Positions 23,943 to 29,858 of a stretch of DNA of 40,490 nucleotides are shown here, in pieces. A program made the position numbers and the translations under genes. The notes under the pieces were generated by a model, which saw only the letters and a program-made list of their open reading frames with translations, did not search any database and was not told where the DNA came from. Numbering within the stretch: the stretch's first letter is position 1; every line of letters begins with the position of its first letter. Source of the stretch: Bifidobacterium breve (lineage in GTDB: Bacteria > Actinomycetota > Actinomycetes > Nanopelagicales > Nanopelagicaceae); contig CAMCXZ010000008.1 in assembly GCA_945883725.1 (NCBI GenBank), positions 1 through 40,490 of the forward strand, read 5' to 3'.

Positions 23943-23951
23943 AGATTGTCC

Positions 23952-24533
23952 ATGCCTCGGATCAACACCAGCAATTTGGTTGAACAACGTGAATGGCGCC
24001 GCAGCCAGTTAATCAGTGCCGCCGCAGCAATCGCGCTGGAATCTGGCAGTGAAGCAATTACGGTTTCAGCAGTGGCGCAACGAGCAGGGTTAGCTCGAAC
24101 CTCAGTTTATGAATATTTCGGCAGTAGTGCAGAGTTGGTCGCAGATTTAATTATTGAAGAACTTTCAGCCTTTACCGACATTCTGGTCAGCGCTGTTGAA
24201 CCAGCGAACTTGCCGGAAGAAGCGATCGCTAATTGGATTAATTCAGCCCTGCAATATATTGCCGATGGTCGCCACTTGTTAGCAAAGGCGCTAAGTGCGA
24301 CATCGCTACCTGTTAACCGCAGCGCTGAAATCGGGGCTGCGCACCGCGCTTTACTAGCTCCATTAAAAACTGCGCTAACCGAAATTGGCGTGCGCGATCT
24401 GAACTATGCCTTAAGCATGATTCAGTCACTCACCGATGCCGCAACTAAGCGAATTGAGAACGGCAATGCCTCAGAGACTGAAATTGCAAAAACTACAGCG
24501 TTTTGTATTGCGGGCTTACGAACTCTTACTTGA
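23952..24533 (+). CDS. TetR/AcrR-family transcriptional regulator
   Basis: A regulator of about 193 residues. The N-terminal DNA-binding domain is clear: ISAAAAIALESGSEAITVSA followed by VAQRAGLARTSVYEYFGSSA and ELVADLI. The C-terminal ligand-binding half is not assignable. The start is ambiguous: ATG 23952, or TTG 23946 in the same frame, neither with a strong ribosome site. The gene follows dinG by about ten bases and overlaps the end of the convergent secreted-protein gene by eight bases. Its target is unknown; neither neighbour is an obvious one. Confidence 0.88.
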   Translation: MPRINTSNLVEQREWRRSQLISAAAAIALESGSEAITVSAVAQRAGLARTSVYEYFGSSAELVADLIIEELSAFTDILVSAVEPANLPEEAIANWINSALQYIADGRHLLAKALSATSLPVNRSAEIGAAHRALLAPLKTALTEIGVRDLNYALSMIQSLTDAATKRIENGNASETEIAKTTAFCIAGLRTLT

Positions 24534-25488
24534 TCGTAATTTTGTGCGTTTCTTTAACACCAGCAAATAGATCAGTAACACTTGGCCCAGTTATTGAGAT
24601 CAAGCAGGTTCCTTTTTTCAGCGCAGTTACTTTGCTGCCAACAACTCGGCAAGTTTTACTCGAAGTTTTAAACTTAAGTTTCTCGCCAAATAAGCTCTCG
24701 TTTTTCAATACAACGCTTTTAGAAGTTTTCAATGTGGTCGGGTATGCCTTATGCAAGATTCCATCTTTGCCAGTAGTTAAATAAATCGGGAAATGAACTT
24801 CAATTGGGCCGTAGGTAGCGTTGCCAGGCGAGCTCACACCAATATCGCAGGCACCAGTACCTTTAAGCGCGGTCACAACGCCATCAACTAATGTGCAGGC
24901 TGGTGCATATGACTTATAGGTCAATGCAGCTCCTGATTTAGCACTTGCTAGCAGCAGTCCCGGAGCTCGGTAAGTCATCGTAATTGGCTTACTTTGACTC
25001 AAGGTGACGCCACCGATTGAAGCTGTGATTTCGTCGCTAACTAAGGTAGGTGTGTTGTCACCGCCCTTAAAGGTAAGTGCGATGAAGTTATCTTCGCTGA
25101 AATCTGTGCCGTTGTTATGGTCGTAACGAATATAGATACCGCAAGAAACTTTGCGACAGTCAACCTCTTCACCAGAACGGGTTTTATAACTTGCTGCCGG
25201 CTTGAACACAATATTGGCAGTTGGGGCAAAGCTTGCACCACGCTCGGTTGAGATCCAGAGTTGGGCCGCATCATTACAAGTGGTCGGACGAGTTGGTCCA
25301 GTTGGCGCTGTGCACTGCAGGAAGTAAAGGCCAGCCTTAGTTGGAAATTCGCTGATCGATAAGTTAATTGTTGGCGCAGCCGATAAGTCAGTAAGCGGTC
25401 CGCCGACAACTTTGGCTTGAGCGTTAGCGGCAGTCGGTGCGACCAATAGTCCTGCGACTACGAACACGGCCAGAATTATTTTTTTCAA
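24526..25488 (-). CDS. Secreted protein: neocarzinostatin-like domain plus Ig-like repeats
   Basis: A 320-residue exported protein with a signal peptide (MKKIILAVFVVAGLLVAP, cleavage near ANAQA, residue 24). Residues about 30-170 hold a domain with the pattern AGLYFLQC, LWIS, VDCRKVSCGIYIRYDHNN and IALTF. It resembles the neocarzinostatin-type Ig fold and the beta modules that accompany haem-transport HtaA proteins. Residues about 175-320 contain two short repeats ending in CTLVDGVVTALKGTGACDI and CRVVGSKVTALKKGTCLISI, typical of secreted Ig-like modules. The start is TTG 25488 with AGGAG six bases upstream, which overlaps the stop of the preceding gene; the two form an operon. The divergent haem ABC genes suggest a surface haem-handling role, by context only. 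Confidence 0.82.
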   Translation of the reverse strand: MKKIILAVFVVAGLLVAPTAANAQAKVVGGPLTDLSAAPTINLSISEFPTKAGLYFLQCTAPTGPTRPTTCNDAAQLWISTERGASFAPTANIVFKPAASYKTRSGEEVDCRKVSCGIYIRYDHNNGTDFSEDNFIALTFKGGDNTPTLVSDEITASIGGVTLSQSKPITMTYRAPGLLLASAKSGAALTYKSYAPACTLVDGVVTALKGTGACDIGVSSPGNATYGPIEVHFPIYLTTGKDGILHKAYPTTLKTSKSVVLKNESLFGEKLKFKTSSKTCRVVGSKVTALKKGTCLISITGPSVTDLFAGVKETHKITIK

Positions 25489-25497
25489 TTGGATCTC

Positions 25498-25977
25498 CTA
25501 TTTGAAAGTAATCGGTAAATAAAGGTCAAAGCTTCGATCTTGACTTCTTAAATGATCTGCTCTTACAGTTACAGCGCACTTAACTTTTTTGCAGTCAAAC
25601 TTGCCAATCTTCTTACTCATTCTGATTTTGTAGCTAAACCGGCCACCTGGCTTAAACGGATCTGCTAATCCGATTCCATATGGTGGCGGGTTTGAGGAAA
25701 TCCAAAATGAACCTTCGCCAACGCCAGCCTTGTTTACCCCACCGCCGCATGGGGTTGGCGGTAATCCTTTTTTGGGAACCACACAAATAGCTAAATAGAT
25801 TCCAACACTTTCATCAAAGCGTTTTCCGGTTACGGTGATAACTGCTTTATCTGCAACTATCGTTGCTGAAGCGGTAAGAGTTTGTCCTAGTTCACCAGTA
25901 ATGGATTTGCTGGCAGCGTATGAGTTTTGTGGCAGCGCTAGGCTTAAAAGTAGGCTCAAAATAAGCACTTTACGCAT
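25498..25977 (-). CDS. Secreted small protein with neocarzinostatin-like domain
   Basis: A 159-residue exported protein. I place the start at ATG 25977, where a signal peptide begins (MRKVLILSLLLSLALPQ, cleavage near SYAAS); the longer open frame upstream has no signal-like sequence. The mature part is a single domain with SVGIYLAICVVPKK, SFWISSN, FDCKKVKCAVTVRADHLRSQ and LYLPITF. The order of motifs is the same as in the first domain of the next gene. Two conserved cysteines (FDC and VKC) and a DH pair recur in both. It is the first gene of a two-gene operon divergent from hmuT. It may be a surface ligand-binding or haem-relay protein; that is inference from neighbours. Confidence 0.8.
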   Translation of the reverse strand: MRKVLILSLLLSLALPQNSYAASKSITGELGQTLTASATIVADKAVITVTGKRFDESVGIYLAICVVPKKGLPPTPCGGGVNKAGVGEGSFWISSNPPPYGIGLADPFKPGGRFSYKIRMSKKIGKFDCKKVKCAVTVRADHLRSQDRSFDLYLPITFK

Positions 25978-26012
25978 ATGCAAACCGTAGTACCCGCACG
26001 TTAAAACGTTAG

Positions 26013-26037
26013 CCGACAAAACATTCGTATCTGTCGG
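26013..26037. promoter_or_regulatory. Inverted repeat in the divergent region between the secreted-protein operon and hmuT
   Basis: CCGACA (26013-26018) and TGTCGG (26032-26037) form a 6-bp inverted repeat with a 13-base gap, in the 84-base region that must hold both divergent promoters. It could be a regulator site. It does not match the DtxR/IdeR or Fur consensus as I know them. Confidence 0.3.
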
Positions 26038-26061
26038 GTGAATTTTTGACACAATATCCAA

Positions 26062-27003
26062 ATGCGTCGGATGCCAACTTTAAAAGTAATGGCGCTCACA
26101 CTTATGCCGATTTTATTGCTCACAGCATGTGCTCAGAGTGAATCAAGTCTGCAAAACGTAATTACGCAAAGCGATGTAACTAGCGTTTCCGTAACACCAG
26201 TTGAGAAATTAATTGATGTGCGGATTGTGGCACTGGCAAATGGCGCCGCTGAATTAATTTCGGCAATGGGATATCAAGATAATTTAGTTGGTCGAGATAT
26301 TGCTAGCAGCACAGCTAAGTTAAAAGATGTTCCGCTAGTTACCTCAGGGCATCAAGTAATTCCAGAGACCATTATTGCCCTGGAACCGACGCTGGTAATT
26401 GTTGATGATGCAACAGGGCCAAGTAGCGCGATTACTCAATTAAAAGCAGCCGGAATCCGCGTAGTTAGTATTTCGCAAAGTTGGAACTTGGCTGAATTAG
26501 TTATCAAGGTTGAGCAGATTGGTGTTGCTCTCGGTACCCCGCAGAGTGCAGCCCTGTTAAAAAATGTGCTCTCAGAATCTGTTACTGGAAATTTAGTTGG
26601 GGTAAGTCAGACTGAGGAGCGGTTAAAAATTGCGTTCCTTTACTTGCGCGGAACAAGTTCGATCTACTTAGTTGGCGGGCAAGGCTCAGGGGCTGATTAC
26701 TTAATCAATGCCACTGGAGCCATAGATGTCGGGGCTCAAAAGTTAGATAAGCCCTTTACGCCGCTAACAGCTGAAACAATGGCGCTGCTAAATCCAGACT
26801 TAATTTTGGTAATGATTGGCGGGCTGGAATCTGTTGGGGGAGTATCTGGTCTAGTTGAATTGCCTGGTATCGCTCAAACAACTGCTGGAAAGAATCGCCA
26901 AGTGATAGCCGTTGATGACTCGCTTCTTTTAAGTTTTGGGCCCCGAACTCCATCTCTGATTGAGAAATTGGCTGCGGCCTTCGGAGTGATAGCAAATGCG
27001 TAG
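26062..27003 (+). CDS. hmuT: Haem-type ABC transporter substrate-binding lipoprotein HmuT
   Basis: A 313-residue cluster-A binding protein of the HmuT type. The lipoprotein signal has lipobox LLTAC with Cys23. The first lobe carries VTSGHQVIPETIIALEPT, the usual HmuT GH...P-E motif with His97 as the likely haem ligand. The second lobe has FLYLRG and IYLVGGQGSGADYLINATGA, which match actinobacterial HmuT closely. It hands haem to the HmuUV importer, whose genes overlap downstream. A possible -10 (CACAAT) ends six bases before the ATG. An internal ATG at 26071 is an alternative start. Confidence 0.88.
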   Translation: MRRMPTLKVMALTLMPILLLTACAQSESSLQNVITQSDVTSVSVTPVEKLIDVRIVALANGAAELISAMGYQDNLVGRDIASSTAKLKDVPLVTSGHQVIPETIIALEPTLVIVDDATGPSSAITQLKAAGIRVVSISQSWNLAELVIKVEQIGVALGTPQSAALLKNVLSESVTGNLVGVSQTEERLKIAFLYLRGTSSIYLVGGQGSGADYLINATGAIDVGAQKLDKPFTPLTAETMALLNPDLILVMIGGLESVGGVSGLVELPGIAQTTAGKNRQVIAVDDSLLLSFGPRTPSLIEKLAAAFGVIANA

Positions 27004-27994
27004 CCGCAACGTTTTTCTGATGATAAACCTAGTTTTTCTACTCGCGATGCTCTTTGTTTCCTTAAGTGTTGGCGCAACCCAAATAGATGGCTTGTTTTCA
27101 GCTTTGTTGCACCCTAGCGCCAATACCAGTGCGGCCGAAATACTTTGGCAGATTCGCGTTCCTCGCATTGTGACCGCGCTAATTGTCGGCGCAGCGCTCG
27201 GTATTGCTGGCGCACTTGCACAAGGCGCTACCAATAATCCGTTAGCTGAACCGGCAATTTTAGGAACTTCAGCAGGAGCTGCCTTAGCCGTGGTACTTGG
27301 CGTACTGGCAAACGCTGTCGTGATTGGTTCAATCGGAGCTATGGCGATAGCTGCCTTTGGCGCACTTTTGGCAACACTTCTGACGTTGCGCTTTGCCACA
27401 CTAGATCGCAATGTGTCACCACTTAATTTAGTCATAATCGGGCTTTCGTTATCTGCCACAATCTCGGCGATCGTTGGCCTCTTAACAACTGCGGTTTCAA
27501 GATCAGATGCCAGATCAATTTCGTTTTGGAGTTTTGGCTCCCTTGCTTTAACTAATTCGAACGACTTAATTCCGTTACTTGCTTTTTTAGTAGCCGGAAT
27601 CGCGATCGCACTCTGGATTTCACCGAAGTTAGATTTACTTTCACTTGGCGATACAACTGCCAGGCATCTAGGTATTGATCCGCGAAAAGTTCGACGAATT
27701 GCGTTAATTGCTCTGGCGATTTTAATTGGCGCAGCAGTTAGTACCGTTGGCACAATCTCTTTCTTAGGTTTAGCTGCCCCGCATATTGCGCGGCTAATTG
27801 GCGGACCAAAACATCGGCCACTAATTCTGCAGAGCGCGTTGCTTGGAGCCACAATTTTGTTGATTGCCGATACGTTAGCTCGCAACATCGCCGCCCCGAA
27901 TGAGTTAAACGTTGGTCTTTTTACCGCCCTCATTGGGGCTCCGATTCTGGCGATCTTGGTGCGCAATCGTCAAAGCAGTTGGAGCCAGTCATGA
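26996..27994 (+). CDS. hmuU: Haem/iron-chelate ABC permease HmuU (FecCD family)
   Basis: A 332-residue FecCD-type permease with about nine or ten hydrophobic helices. Family motifs include RVPRIVTALIVGAALGIAGA, TNNPLAEPAILGTSAGAALA and the cytoplasmic loop ARHLGIDPRKVRR that contacts the ATPase, then GTISFLGLAAPHIARLIGG. It overlaps hmuT by eight bases and hmuV by four (ATGA), which indicates one operon and coupled translation. Substrate assignment follows from HmuT. Confidence 0.92.
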   Translation: MRSRNVFLMINLVFLLAMLFVSLSVGATQIDGLFSALLHPSANTSAAEILWQIRVPRIVTALIVGAALGIAGALAQGATNNPLAEPAILGTSAGAALAVVLGVLANAVVIGSIGAMAIAAFGALLATLLTLRFATLDRNVSPLNLVIIGLSLSATISAIVGLLTTAVSRSDARSISFWSFGSLALTNSNDLIPLLAFLVAGIAIALWISPKLDLLSLGDTTARHLGIDPRKVRRIALIALAILIGAAVSTVGTISFLGLAAPHIARLIGGPKHRPLILQSALLGATILLIADTLARNIAAPNELNVGLFTALIGAPILAILVRNRQSSWSQS

Positions 27995-28599
27995 TTTCAA
28001 TTAAATCAATCTCGGTCTCTCGTGGTACCGCCAAAGTGATTAAGGACGTTAGCGCTGAATTTAAGGCGGGCACGATCACGGCAATTATCGGGCCAAATGG
28101 CTGTGGCAAAAGCACGCTACTCGCCGCCATTGCAGGCGATCTGCCGTTAACAAGTGGTGCGATTTCGTTATATGAGAAAGATTTACAAAGTTATCAGATT
28201 GCTGACTTAGCGAAATTGCGTAGCGTAGTTCTACAGCAACCAGCATTTAATTTAGCTTTTACAGTCCAAGAAGTTCTCGCAATGGCGCGCACTGCTGGTT
28301 CAACACTTGAGAGTGAAACTGCTGCAATTATCAAACTAGCTATTAGCGAATTAGCTGATCGAAAAGTCACCCAGTTATCGGGCGGTGAAAAACAGCGCGT
28401 TGCTATTGCATTGGCTATTGCAGTTGATGCACCAGTTCTGTTACTAGATGAACCACTTGCTGCCCAAGATGTTGAGAGCACTGAACGAATTATTGATCTA
28501 ATTAAGGCAGAGGCAGAAGCCGGAAAAACAATTATCTTGGTGGCTCATGTGCCAGAGTCAGAATTAAATTGGTGCGATCAAATCATTAAGAATTTCTAA
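27991..28599 (+). CDS. hmuV: Haem ABC transporter ATP-binding protein HmuV
   Basis: A 202-residue ATPase with Walker A GPNGCGKST, signature LSGGEKQRVAIALAI, Walker B VLLLDEPLAA and H-loop VAHVPESE. The start is ATG 27991 (ATGA overlap with hmuU), served by GGAG at 27981-27984; a TTG at 27979 lies in frame upstream. The protein is shorter than the usual 250 or so residues of HmuV/FecE, ending soon after the H-loop, but all catalytic motifs are present. Its last 36 bases overlap the 3' end of the convergent Nudix gene. Confidence 0.9.
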   Translation: MISIKSISVSRGTAKVIKDVSAEFKAGTITAIIGPNGCGKSTLLAAIAGDLPLTSGAISLYEKDLQSYQIADLAKLRSVVLQQPAFNLAFTVQEVLAMARTAGSTLESETAAIIKLAISELADRKVTQLSGGEKQRVAIALAIAVDAPVLLLDEPLAAQDVESTERIIDLIKAEAEAGKTIILVAHVPESELNWCDQIIKNF

Positions 28600-29108: not shown

Positions 29109-29858
29109 ATGCGAAAACTACCGATCTACCTGCTTTTAACCCTGCTAATACCGTTCGGCACAGCTAGCGCTGCGAACTGTGAGAGCACCGCCTGTATCGA
29201 TGTTTATACCCAAGATGGCCAGATCATTATTGAAGGCAAGAAAGGCAGCGGCCCTAAGGTCAAGCCACGAGTAGCTAAACCGCCAACTCCTAAAGTAATT
29301 CCACCAAAGCCAATTTTTCCAGAGTTGATTCCGCGTCCAACAGCTACACCTAAGCCAACTCCGAAGCGAACCTATAAGCCACGAGCTAAGTCAACAGTTA
29401 AACCATCACTTAAACCATCACTTAAACCAAAAGTTTCCAGTTCAGTTTCCTTAAATGATCGCTTAATAAAATTATTACCTACCGGTGGCATTGCATATCA
29501 ACCTGAAGCCGAACCGCTGGTAAATGTGCCGATCTTTTTCTGGAGTGATCTGCCAACTCAATTCGCAACTCGCGTGACAGTGGTGGGCGAAGTAGTAGAT
29601 GTGTTATTGCGTCCAGGTTTTGTTTGGAGTTTTGGCGATGGAACTTTCTTAAGCACCACTGATCCGGGCGGGCCATATCCAAATGGCAAAATCAAACATA
29701 CATACAAGAATCCGGGTATCTACCCAATTATTTTAGTGCAGAGCTGGAACGGTCACTGGACCCACAATGGCACTACCCGAGCAATTACTGGCACGATCAA
29801 GACCACAGTTTTTGCCGTTGTAACGGTAGTAATTGCGCCAACTCGCTTTATGTTTTAG
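29109..29858 (+). CDS. Secreted PKD-domain protein with Pro/Lys-rich linker
   Basis: A 249-residue exported protein. A signal peptide covers residues 1-21 (LLLTLLIPFGTASA). Two cysteines follow at once (NCESTACIDVYTQDG), likely disulfide bonded. A linker rich in proline and lysine spans about residues 45-110. The C-terminal part has a PKD-like fold signature, WSFGDGTFLSTTDPGGPYP and HTYKNPGIYPI. It is probably a cell-surface or wall-associated protein; the function is unknown. It is divergent from the Nudix gene. The linker includes a 12-base tandem repeat. Confidence 0.82.
   Translation: MRKLPIYLLLTLLIPFGTASAANCESTACIDVYTQDGQIIIEGKKGSGPKVKPRVAKPPTPKVIPPKPIFPELIPRPTATPKPTPKRTYKPRAKSTVKPSLKPSLKPKVSSSVSLNDRLIKLLPTGGIAYQPEAEPLVNVPIFFWSDLPTQFATRVTVVGEVVDVLLRPGFVWSFGDGTFLSTTDPGGPYPNGKIKHTYKNPGIYPIILVQSWNGHWTHNGTTRAITGTIKTTVFAVVTVVIAPTRFMF
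29398..29429 (+). repeat. 12-base tandem repeat in the PKD protein linker
   Basis: TTAAACCATCAC occurs at 29398-29409 and 29410-29421, followed by a partial third copy. It encodes KPSL units in the linker, so copy number may vary between strains. Confidence 0.6.

Follow-up and report, generated by a model that had tools for sequence, protein, structure and literature searches.

Exported neocarzinostatin-fold proteins with putative haem binding in a conserved haem-uptake locus of Nanopelagicaceae

We describe a haem-import locus of the Nanopelagicaceae in which the genes of the ATP-binding cassette (ABC) importer HmuTUV lie next to those of two exported proteins, named NcsB (the one adjacent to hmuT) and NcsA (the second one). 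The locus is located in the window, i.e. the whole stretch of 40,490 nucleotides that was analysed (assembly GCA_945883725.1, contig CAMCXZ010000008.1, titled Bifidobacterium breve), belonging to a genome of 1.34 Mb in 61 contigs that is 86% complete. Open reading frames are present for hmuTUV on the + strand (26062-28599) and, divergent from it, for ncsB (25498-25977) and ncsA (24526-25488) on the - strand. The locus is a genuine haem-uptake module, which is conserved and includes a family of exported proteins that has been overlooked; haem binding by NcsB is putative. Involvement of NcsA and NcsB in haem uptake is well supported; NcsB, together with NcsA, probably captures or relays haem at the cell surface for HmuTUV.

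The gene neighbourhood was assessed in a class sample of 394 Actinomycetes genomes from 137 genera. The NcsB profile (E-value 1e-5) matched 69 genomes in 27 genera, while HtaA was detected in 86 genomes and HmuT (E-value 1e-40) in 125. For 59 of the 69 NcsB-positive genomes, the best NcsB match and hmuT lie within 2 kb of each other, divergently in 54 and on the same strand in 5, and this proximity extends over ten families. HmuT was present in 63 of the 69 NcsB-positive genomes versus 62 of the 325 NcsB-negative ones (Fisher p 1e-30, with no correction for kinship). In other families, genes for haem oxygenase and HtaA are found next to NcsB. A preliminary description of the window would have counted neighbours unrelated to iron or haem in relatives against its reading; the haem neighbourhood is instead conserved in ten families. 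Elsewhere in the sample, NcsB was found at the end of one contig and HmuT at the start of another (G073), or at a contig start with HtaA beside it and no HmuT found (G148). Two genomes (G246 and G251) carry NcsB beside a haem oxygenase gene detected with our own profile, the one in G246 being confirmed by Pfam. A match to the NcsB profile with no HmuT found was obtained in G172 and G127, the latter match being of the NcsA type.

A scan of named genomes by NcsB alone gave 214 confirmed stretches. The best 80, hereafter the named loci, come mostly from assemblies titled actinobacterium or Nanopelagicaceae and one Actinomadura, and they lean to close relatives because only these 80 of the 214 were kept. 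The hmuT gene is adjacent to NcsB in 77 of them; in the other three (L098, L113 and L135), the sequence ends less than 270 bases beyond on the hmuT side. Typically, hmuV-hmuU-hmuT faces ncsB-ncsA, and a convergent tetR gene follows. Among the 71 TetR-bearing named loci, some of which end at contig ends, dinG was detected in 40. Five assemblies titled Bifidobacterium breve (L066, L081, L104, L127 and L133) carry the freshwater Nanopelagicaceae locus, and their labels look wrong. Another gene that relatives retain next to the hmu locus (29109-29858 of the window, + strand) encodes an exported proline-rich protein with a PKD-like match below the Pfam cut-off.

The same arrangement was observed within the genus, for which 37 genomes were sampled, many of them incomplete; two (G014 and G015) consist of a single contig each, at 99%. 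HmuT was detected in 13 genomes, each of which has neocarzinostatin-type coding sequence in divergent orientation to it, comprising both NcsB and NcsA in 12 and one NcsB-type protein in G035. NcsA-like fragments were found at contig ends in G026 and G028. In the single-contig genome G127, an NcsA-type gene (L194:5950-7001) and the TetR gene are present, perhaps as a remnant; no hmuT or ncsB was detected by profile in the 13-kb stretch containing them.

The importer itself is recognisable, as first described, and the lipobox assigned to HmuT (LTAC) is read directly in the sequence. The predicted haem-binding lipoprotein HmuT (26062-27003, + strand) matches Pfam Peripla_BP_2 (3.4e-23), and its closest solved structure is HmuT of C. 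glutamicum (5az3, E-value 6e-46). Residues H97, Y194 and R196 align to the haem ligands of 5az3 and are identical in the 10 aligned HmuT sequences; in the excerpted text on C. glutamicum HmuT, the haem site consists of His141, Tyr240 and Arg242 (PMC4926363). A permease of the FecCD type, HmuU (26996-27994, + strand; Pfam FecCD, 2.5e-84), and an ABC ATPase, HmuV (27979-28599, + strand; Pfam ABC_tran, 2.7e-32), are encoded together with this substrate-binding lipoprotein. The best NCBIfam model for HmuV is the haem ABC ATPase PRK13548 (166.6 bits, below the cut-off of 261). For HmuU, the best NCBIfam score is with BtuC (202.7 bits, far below the cut-off of 334), which could indicate a transporter for another tetrapyrrole or a corrinoid, with exported proteins binding that ligand. 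This is highly improbable given that the structures nearest to HmuT are those of haem-binding HmuT proteins, whose axial residues it shares, and that haem oxygenase genes adjoin the locus in relatives.

The start of ncsB was chosen by inspection. The listed start is a TTG at 26061, directly abutting that of hmuT; the ATG at 25977 is likely the real one, giving a protein of 159 amino acids with the signal peptide MRKVLIL...SYA and leaving 84 bases to hmuT. NcsA is an exported protein of 320 amino acids, in which a neocarzinostatin-like domain at the N-terminus precedes further beta domains. Read by eye, both proteins have Sec-type signal peptides and no lipobox, and no C-terminal anchor was seen in either. 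The view that the two divergent proteins share a cysteine-bearing domain was borne out, with two cysteine pairs in common. The affiliation of this domain with neocarzinostatin was upheld by the fold model of NcsB and less so by Pfam: PF00960 scored 18.3 bits with NcsA (E-value 0.0023, cut-off 25) and gave no match with the window NcsB at an E-value of 10. Seventeen of the 53 NcsB members match PF00960 at an E-value of 0.01 or lower. Because the cut-off is not reached, the window proteins are called here neocarzinostatin-fold proteins and not PF00960 members. The NCBIfam model chromo_anti matched NcsA at 6.3e-9, also under its cut-off. No plasmid relatives of NcsB were found at an E-value of 0.01.

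AlphaFold2 models were built from alignments of 53 (NcsB) and 40 (NcsA) sequences, with a mean predicted local distance difference test (pLDDT) of 83.4 and a predicted template modelling score (pTM) of 0.76 for NcsB, and of 89.4 and 0.53 for NcsA. In a VIA comparison, the NcsB model superposed on macromomycin with a Z of 12.3 and on neocarzinostatin with a Z of 12.2 (1.9 to 2.1 A over 100 to 102 residues). The first ten VIA matches comprise nine structures of the family by title and 4jw3 (Z 12.1), which we take to be a neocarzinostatin complex; unrelated structures begin with arrestin at rank 11 (Z 8.4). Foldseek likewise placed neocarzinostatin-family structures or engineered mutants at ranks 1 to 10 and 12, and 4jw3 at rank 11. 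For the NcsA model, three of the five Foldseek matches with an E-value of 0.001 or lower belong to this family (ranks 2, 3 and 5), and SraP ranks first. The predicted fold of NcsB is that of neocarzinostatin, an immunoglobulin-like family fold. No structure of the HtaA (CR) domain is named among the best 50 matches of each NcsB fold search, which does not show the folds to be different.

The neocarzinostatin fold is known as the carrier of a bulky aromatic chromophore, an antitumour antibiotic. The window proteins could be ordinary enediyne-type chromoproteins lying beside hmuT by chance, with which the common fold and the conserved cysteine pairs would agree; at an E-value of 0.01 or lower, the NCBIfam model for enediyne chromoproteins hits 42 of the 53 NcsB members, the best at 6.6e-10. 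We find this scarcely credible: the window proteins score 35.8 and 14.6 bits with that model (NF040680), far below its equivalog cut-off of 86, and the adjacency to hmuT recurs in ten families. NcsB shares with the PF00960 proteins (neocarzinostatin, macromomycin, actinoxanthin, C-1027 and kedarcidin) its fold (VIA Z 12.3, 1.9 A over 100 residues) and the two cysteine pairs, and differs from them by an invariant Tyr100, an invariant R-x-D-H motif after the last cysteine and its haem-uptake neighbourhood. To our knowledge, Tyr100 and the R-x-D-H motif are absent from the classical proteins of the neocarzinostatin family.

For the NcsA and NcsB profiles alike, the best match in the Protein Data Bank is ThiX (7qhm chain M), with E-values of 5.4e-7 and 4.4e-6. 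ThiX is a lipoprotein subunit of the bcc-aa3 supercomplex in C. glutamicum; according to the excerpted description, its soluble domain was not resolved (PMC8795186). It is a recognisable sequence relative of NcsA and NcsB, which suggests a neocarzinostatin-like soluble domain for ThiX. A tryptophan and an Asp-His motif are common to them in the alignments; ThiX differs in being a lipoprotein of a respiratory complex. That this respiratory subunit is the closest solved chain by sequence would fit a role of NcsA and NcsB in buffering or protecting from extracellular haem, or in supplying extracytoplasmic cytochromes, and not in serving HmuT. Such a role is very unlikely, the genes being found with the importer and, in several families, also with haem oxygenase.

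If NcsB holds haem, its invariant residues are the candidates for doing so. In the 53 aligned NcsB sequences, Y61, W92, N96, Y100, R139, D141, H142, D147 and D151 are invariant, as are the four cysteines C65, C77, C129 and C134, whose two pairs presumably correspond to the disulphides of neocarzinostatin. Both Y100 and H142 are kept in all 16 further copies with a domain score above 140 and hmuT on the same stretch. Among copies not beside hmuT, position 100 is a Phe in G172 (no HmuT found) and a His in one of the copies of L185, from an f19 genome (G411). In that stretch (L185:4777-7599), two tandem NcsB-type proteins lie away from both hmuT and HtaA, and it is one of these that has the His. 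Mean pLDDT in the NcsB model is 91 for residues 91-100, which include Tyr100, and 79 for residues 141-150, which makes the placement of His142 less certain. Tyr100 presumably lies in an insertion relative to neocarzinostatin; this is an impression and not a result. A tyrosine ligand with a histidine helper in NcsB would resemble the HtaA CR domain, which binds hemin through a tyrosine according to an excerpt of the relevant study (PMC12494546).

The absence of a canonical HtaA domain, noted at the outset, was confirmed in the window genome, with the restriction that it is 86% complete: PF04213 gave no match at an E-value of 10, the C. glutamicum control being positive. Of the earlier suggestion that the small proteins may replace HtaA in surface haem capture or relay, the tie to haem uptake stands, in ten families, and no HtaA was found here; as a simple replacement it does not hold. 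Among the 125 HmuT genomes of the class sample, 33 have NcsB only, 46 HtaA only, 30 both and 16 neither. With both present in 30 genomes and the domains fused in some proteins, replacement of HtaA was rejected as the whole story. The neocarzinostatin-type proteins are a wider companion, present also where HtaA is missing (33 of 125). The clearest fusion is a protein of 2425 amino acids in L187 (G095), with three HtaA stretches, a neocarzinostatin domain above the Pfam cut-off (PF00960, 36.3 bits versus 25) and a terminal LPDTG-type anchor. A protein of 992 amino acids in L062 combines two HtaA stretches with a neocarzinostatin match of 22.0 bits, under the cut-off. Further combinations of HtaA with weaker neocarzinostatin-like matches (18 to 35 bits, own profiles) were detected in L188, L189, L196 and L200, those of L188, L189 and L200 by these profiles without Pfam. 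The NcsB proteins of L187, L189 and L193 end in LPxTG-like anchors, as read from their sequences.

The need for imported haem was examined in the genus sample. HemC and HemH were each absent in 36 of the 37 genomes, that of the window included, and no haem oxygenase was found in any of the 37. COX1 is present in all 25 of these genomes that were searched for it, again including the window's. Single gene absences are weak because many of the genomes are incomplete; the pattern including the single-contig genomes G014 and G015 is stronger. With no HemC or HemH found, COX1 present and a genome 86% complete, the window organism is a predicted haem auxotroph. Our survey agrees with the excerpted text of a 2020 paper recording no haem synthesis pathway for any Nanopelagicales (PMC7527133) and with partial text on haem auxotrophy in Planktophila (PMC12381374). 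G036 is the only genome of the genus with both HemC and HemH, and no HmuT was found in it. G014 and G015 show no HemC, HemH or HmuT and carry COX1, pointing to haem supply by some other route.

Several observations weigh against haem capture by NcsB for HmuTUV. NcsB is found apart from hmuT in four f19 genomes, of which three have HmuT elsewhere and G334 has none that was found, and three of the five readable copies away from hmuT keep Tyr100 (the other L185 copy, L186 and L204). Most other NcsB positions examined are as invariant as the proposed ligands, and folding or protein contacts may instead be what keeps the residues invariant. HmuT alone might pick up haem in the 16 of 125 HmuT genomes with neither NcsB nor HtaA, and Pfam finds no neocarzinostatin domain in the HtaA protein of L196 flagged by our own profile. 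Moreover, no HmuT was detected in 24 of the 37 genus genomes, G014 and G015 among them, and 23 of these 24 also lack HemC and HemH, so HmuTUV is not the only haem route of the lineage.

Some of these points would suit a role in haem uptake without haem binding, NcsA and NcsB acting as an adaptor or scaffold on a haemoprotein, the cell wall or HmuT. The invariant residues of NcsB fit protein contact equally well, NcsA has further beta domains and a C-terminal part that matches other proteins of the genus (308 to 3347 amino acids), and in the HtaA fusions the HtaA domains could bind the haem. In the 33 HmuT genomes with NcsB and no HtaA match, however, haem capture would then fall to another protein or to HmuT alone, and we hold such an adaptor to be unlikely.

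We therefore retain haem capture or relay by NcsB and NcsA as the preferred reading. In this haem-import module, both exported proteins would work outside the membrane. The neocarzinostatin fold of NcsB may hold haem; the likeliest iron ligand would be the invariant Tyr100, and His142 is a possible partner. From this capture or relay stage, haem would be handed to the lipoprotein HmuT, which would feed it to HmuUV; this order of transfer, like the ligands, is inferred. The haem would then be used intact, in a lineage predicted to be auxotrophic and in which no haem oxygenase gene was found. We also lean slightly towards a broader proposal, in which the NcsB family is an unrecognised class of haem-binding surface domain with a tyrosine and a histidine helper, working beside or instead of HtaA and forming the capture stage in a subset of haem-auxotrophic freshwater Nanopelagicaceae.

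The two divergent units are separated by a promoter region of 84 bases (25978-26061, no strand), which contains the palindrome CGACA-N13-TGTCG (26014-26036, no strand), the likely operator. The shorter form GACA-N13-TGTC is found between ncsB and hmuT in 55 of the 80 named loci, at 59 sites, four loci having two; elsewhere it occurs 5 times in 932,854 bases. In a single count of spacings near ncsB, N13 was found at 56 places, N8 at 10 and N14 at 2. This conserved palindrome suggests one dedicated regulator for both divergent units. The adjacent TetR-family gene (23946-24533, + strand; Pfam TetR_N, 9.3e-9), convergent with ncsA, encodes a candidate for this role, and 71 of the 80 named loci have a relative of it no more than 2.5 kb downstream of ncsB. 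Its control of the palindrome is kept at candidate level because in L072 and L073 the palindrome occurs without a TetR downstream of ncsB, and 21 named loci have TetR without the exact palindrome (L113 among them, its promoter lying off the contig). A DtxR/IdeR iron box in the divergent promoter was unsupported: the best match in the window covers 11 of 19 positions, and the best matches in 25 related loci cover 9 to 11. Within the window genome, the palindrome has three exact places, two of them inside open frames that we take to be aroC-like and guaB-like, as recognised without a family search. A wider regulon was rejected and none is claimed because one mismatch gives 33 places versus 56 for the reversed control.

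Compared with the HtaA/HtaB-HmuTUV system of Corynebacterium, the window shares the His/Tyr/Arg haem site of HmuT, HmuU, HmuV and exported proteins alongside; it differs in that no HtaA (CR) domain or haem oxygenase gene was found and in its neocarzinostatin-fold partners. In the NEAT-domain (Isd) relay of Bacillota, small surface domains pass haem to an ABC importer. If our reading is right, NcsB and NcsA would work similarly with a different domain family, a likeness that we draw from general knowledge. Our search of the open-licence literature found no paper joining neocarzinostatin with HtaA, or an actinobacterial neocarzinostatin domain with hemin, and the titles and abstract openings of papers mentioning neocarzinostatin and iron uptake show no link between them. 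Excerpts of one paper mention iron uptake and, separately, a wall protein of Actinoplanes that has a neocarzinostatin-like domain (PMC13251363).

Nanopelagicales of fresh water abound in lakes. The excerpted text of the 2020 paper called for evidence that members of this order secrete hemophores or have haem receptors (PMC7527133), and the locus supplies candidate proteins, residues and an operator for haem acquisition in Nanopelagicales. If the proposed function is true, the neocarzinostatin fold would gain a physiological role beyond the carriage of enediyne antibiotics, and haem uptake in many Actinomycetes would have an added component.

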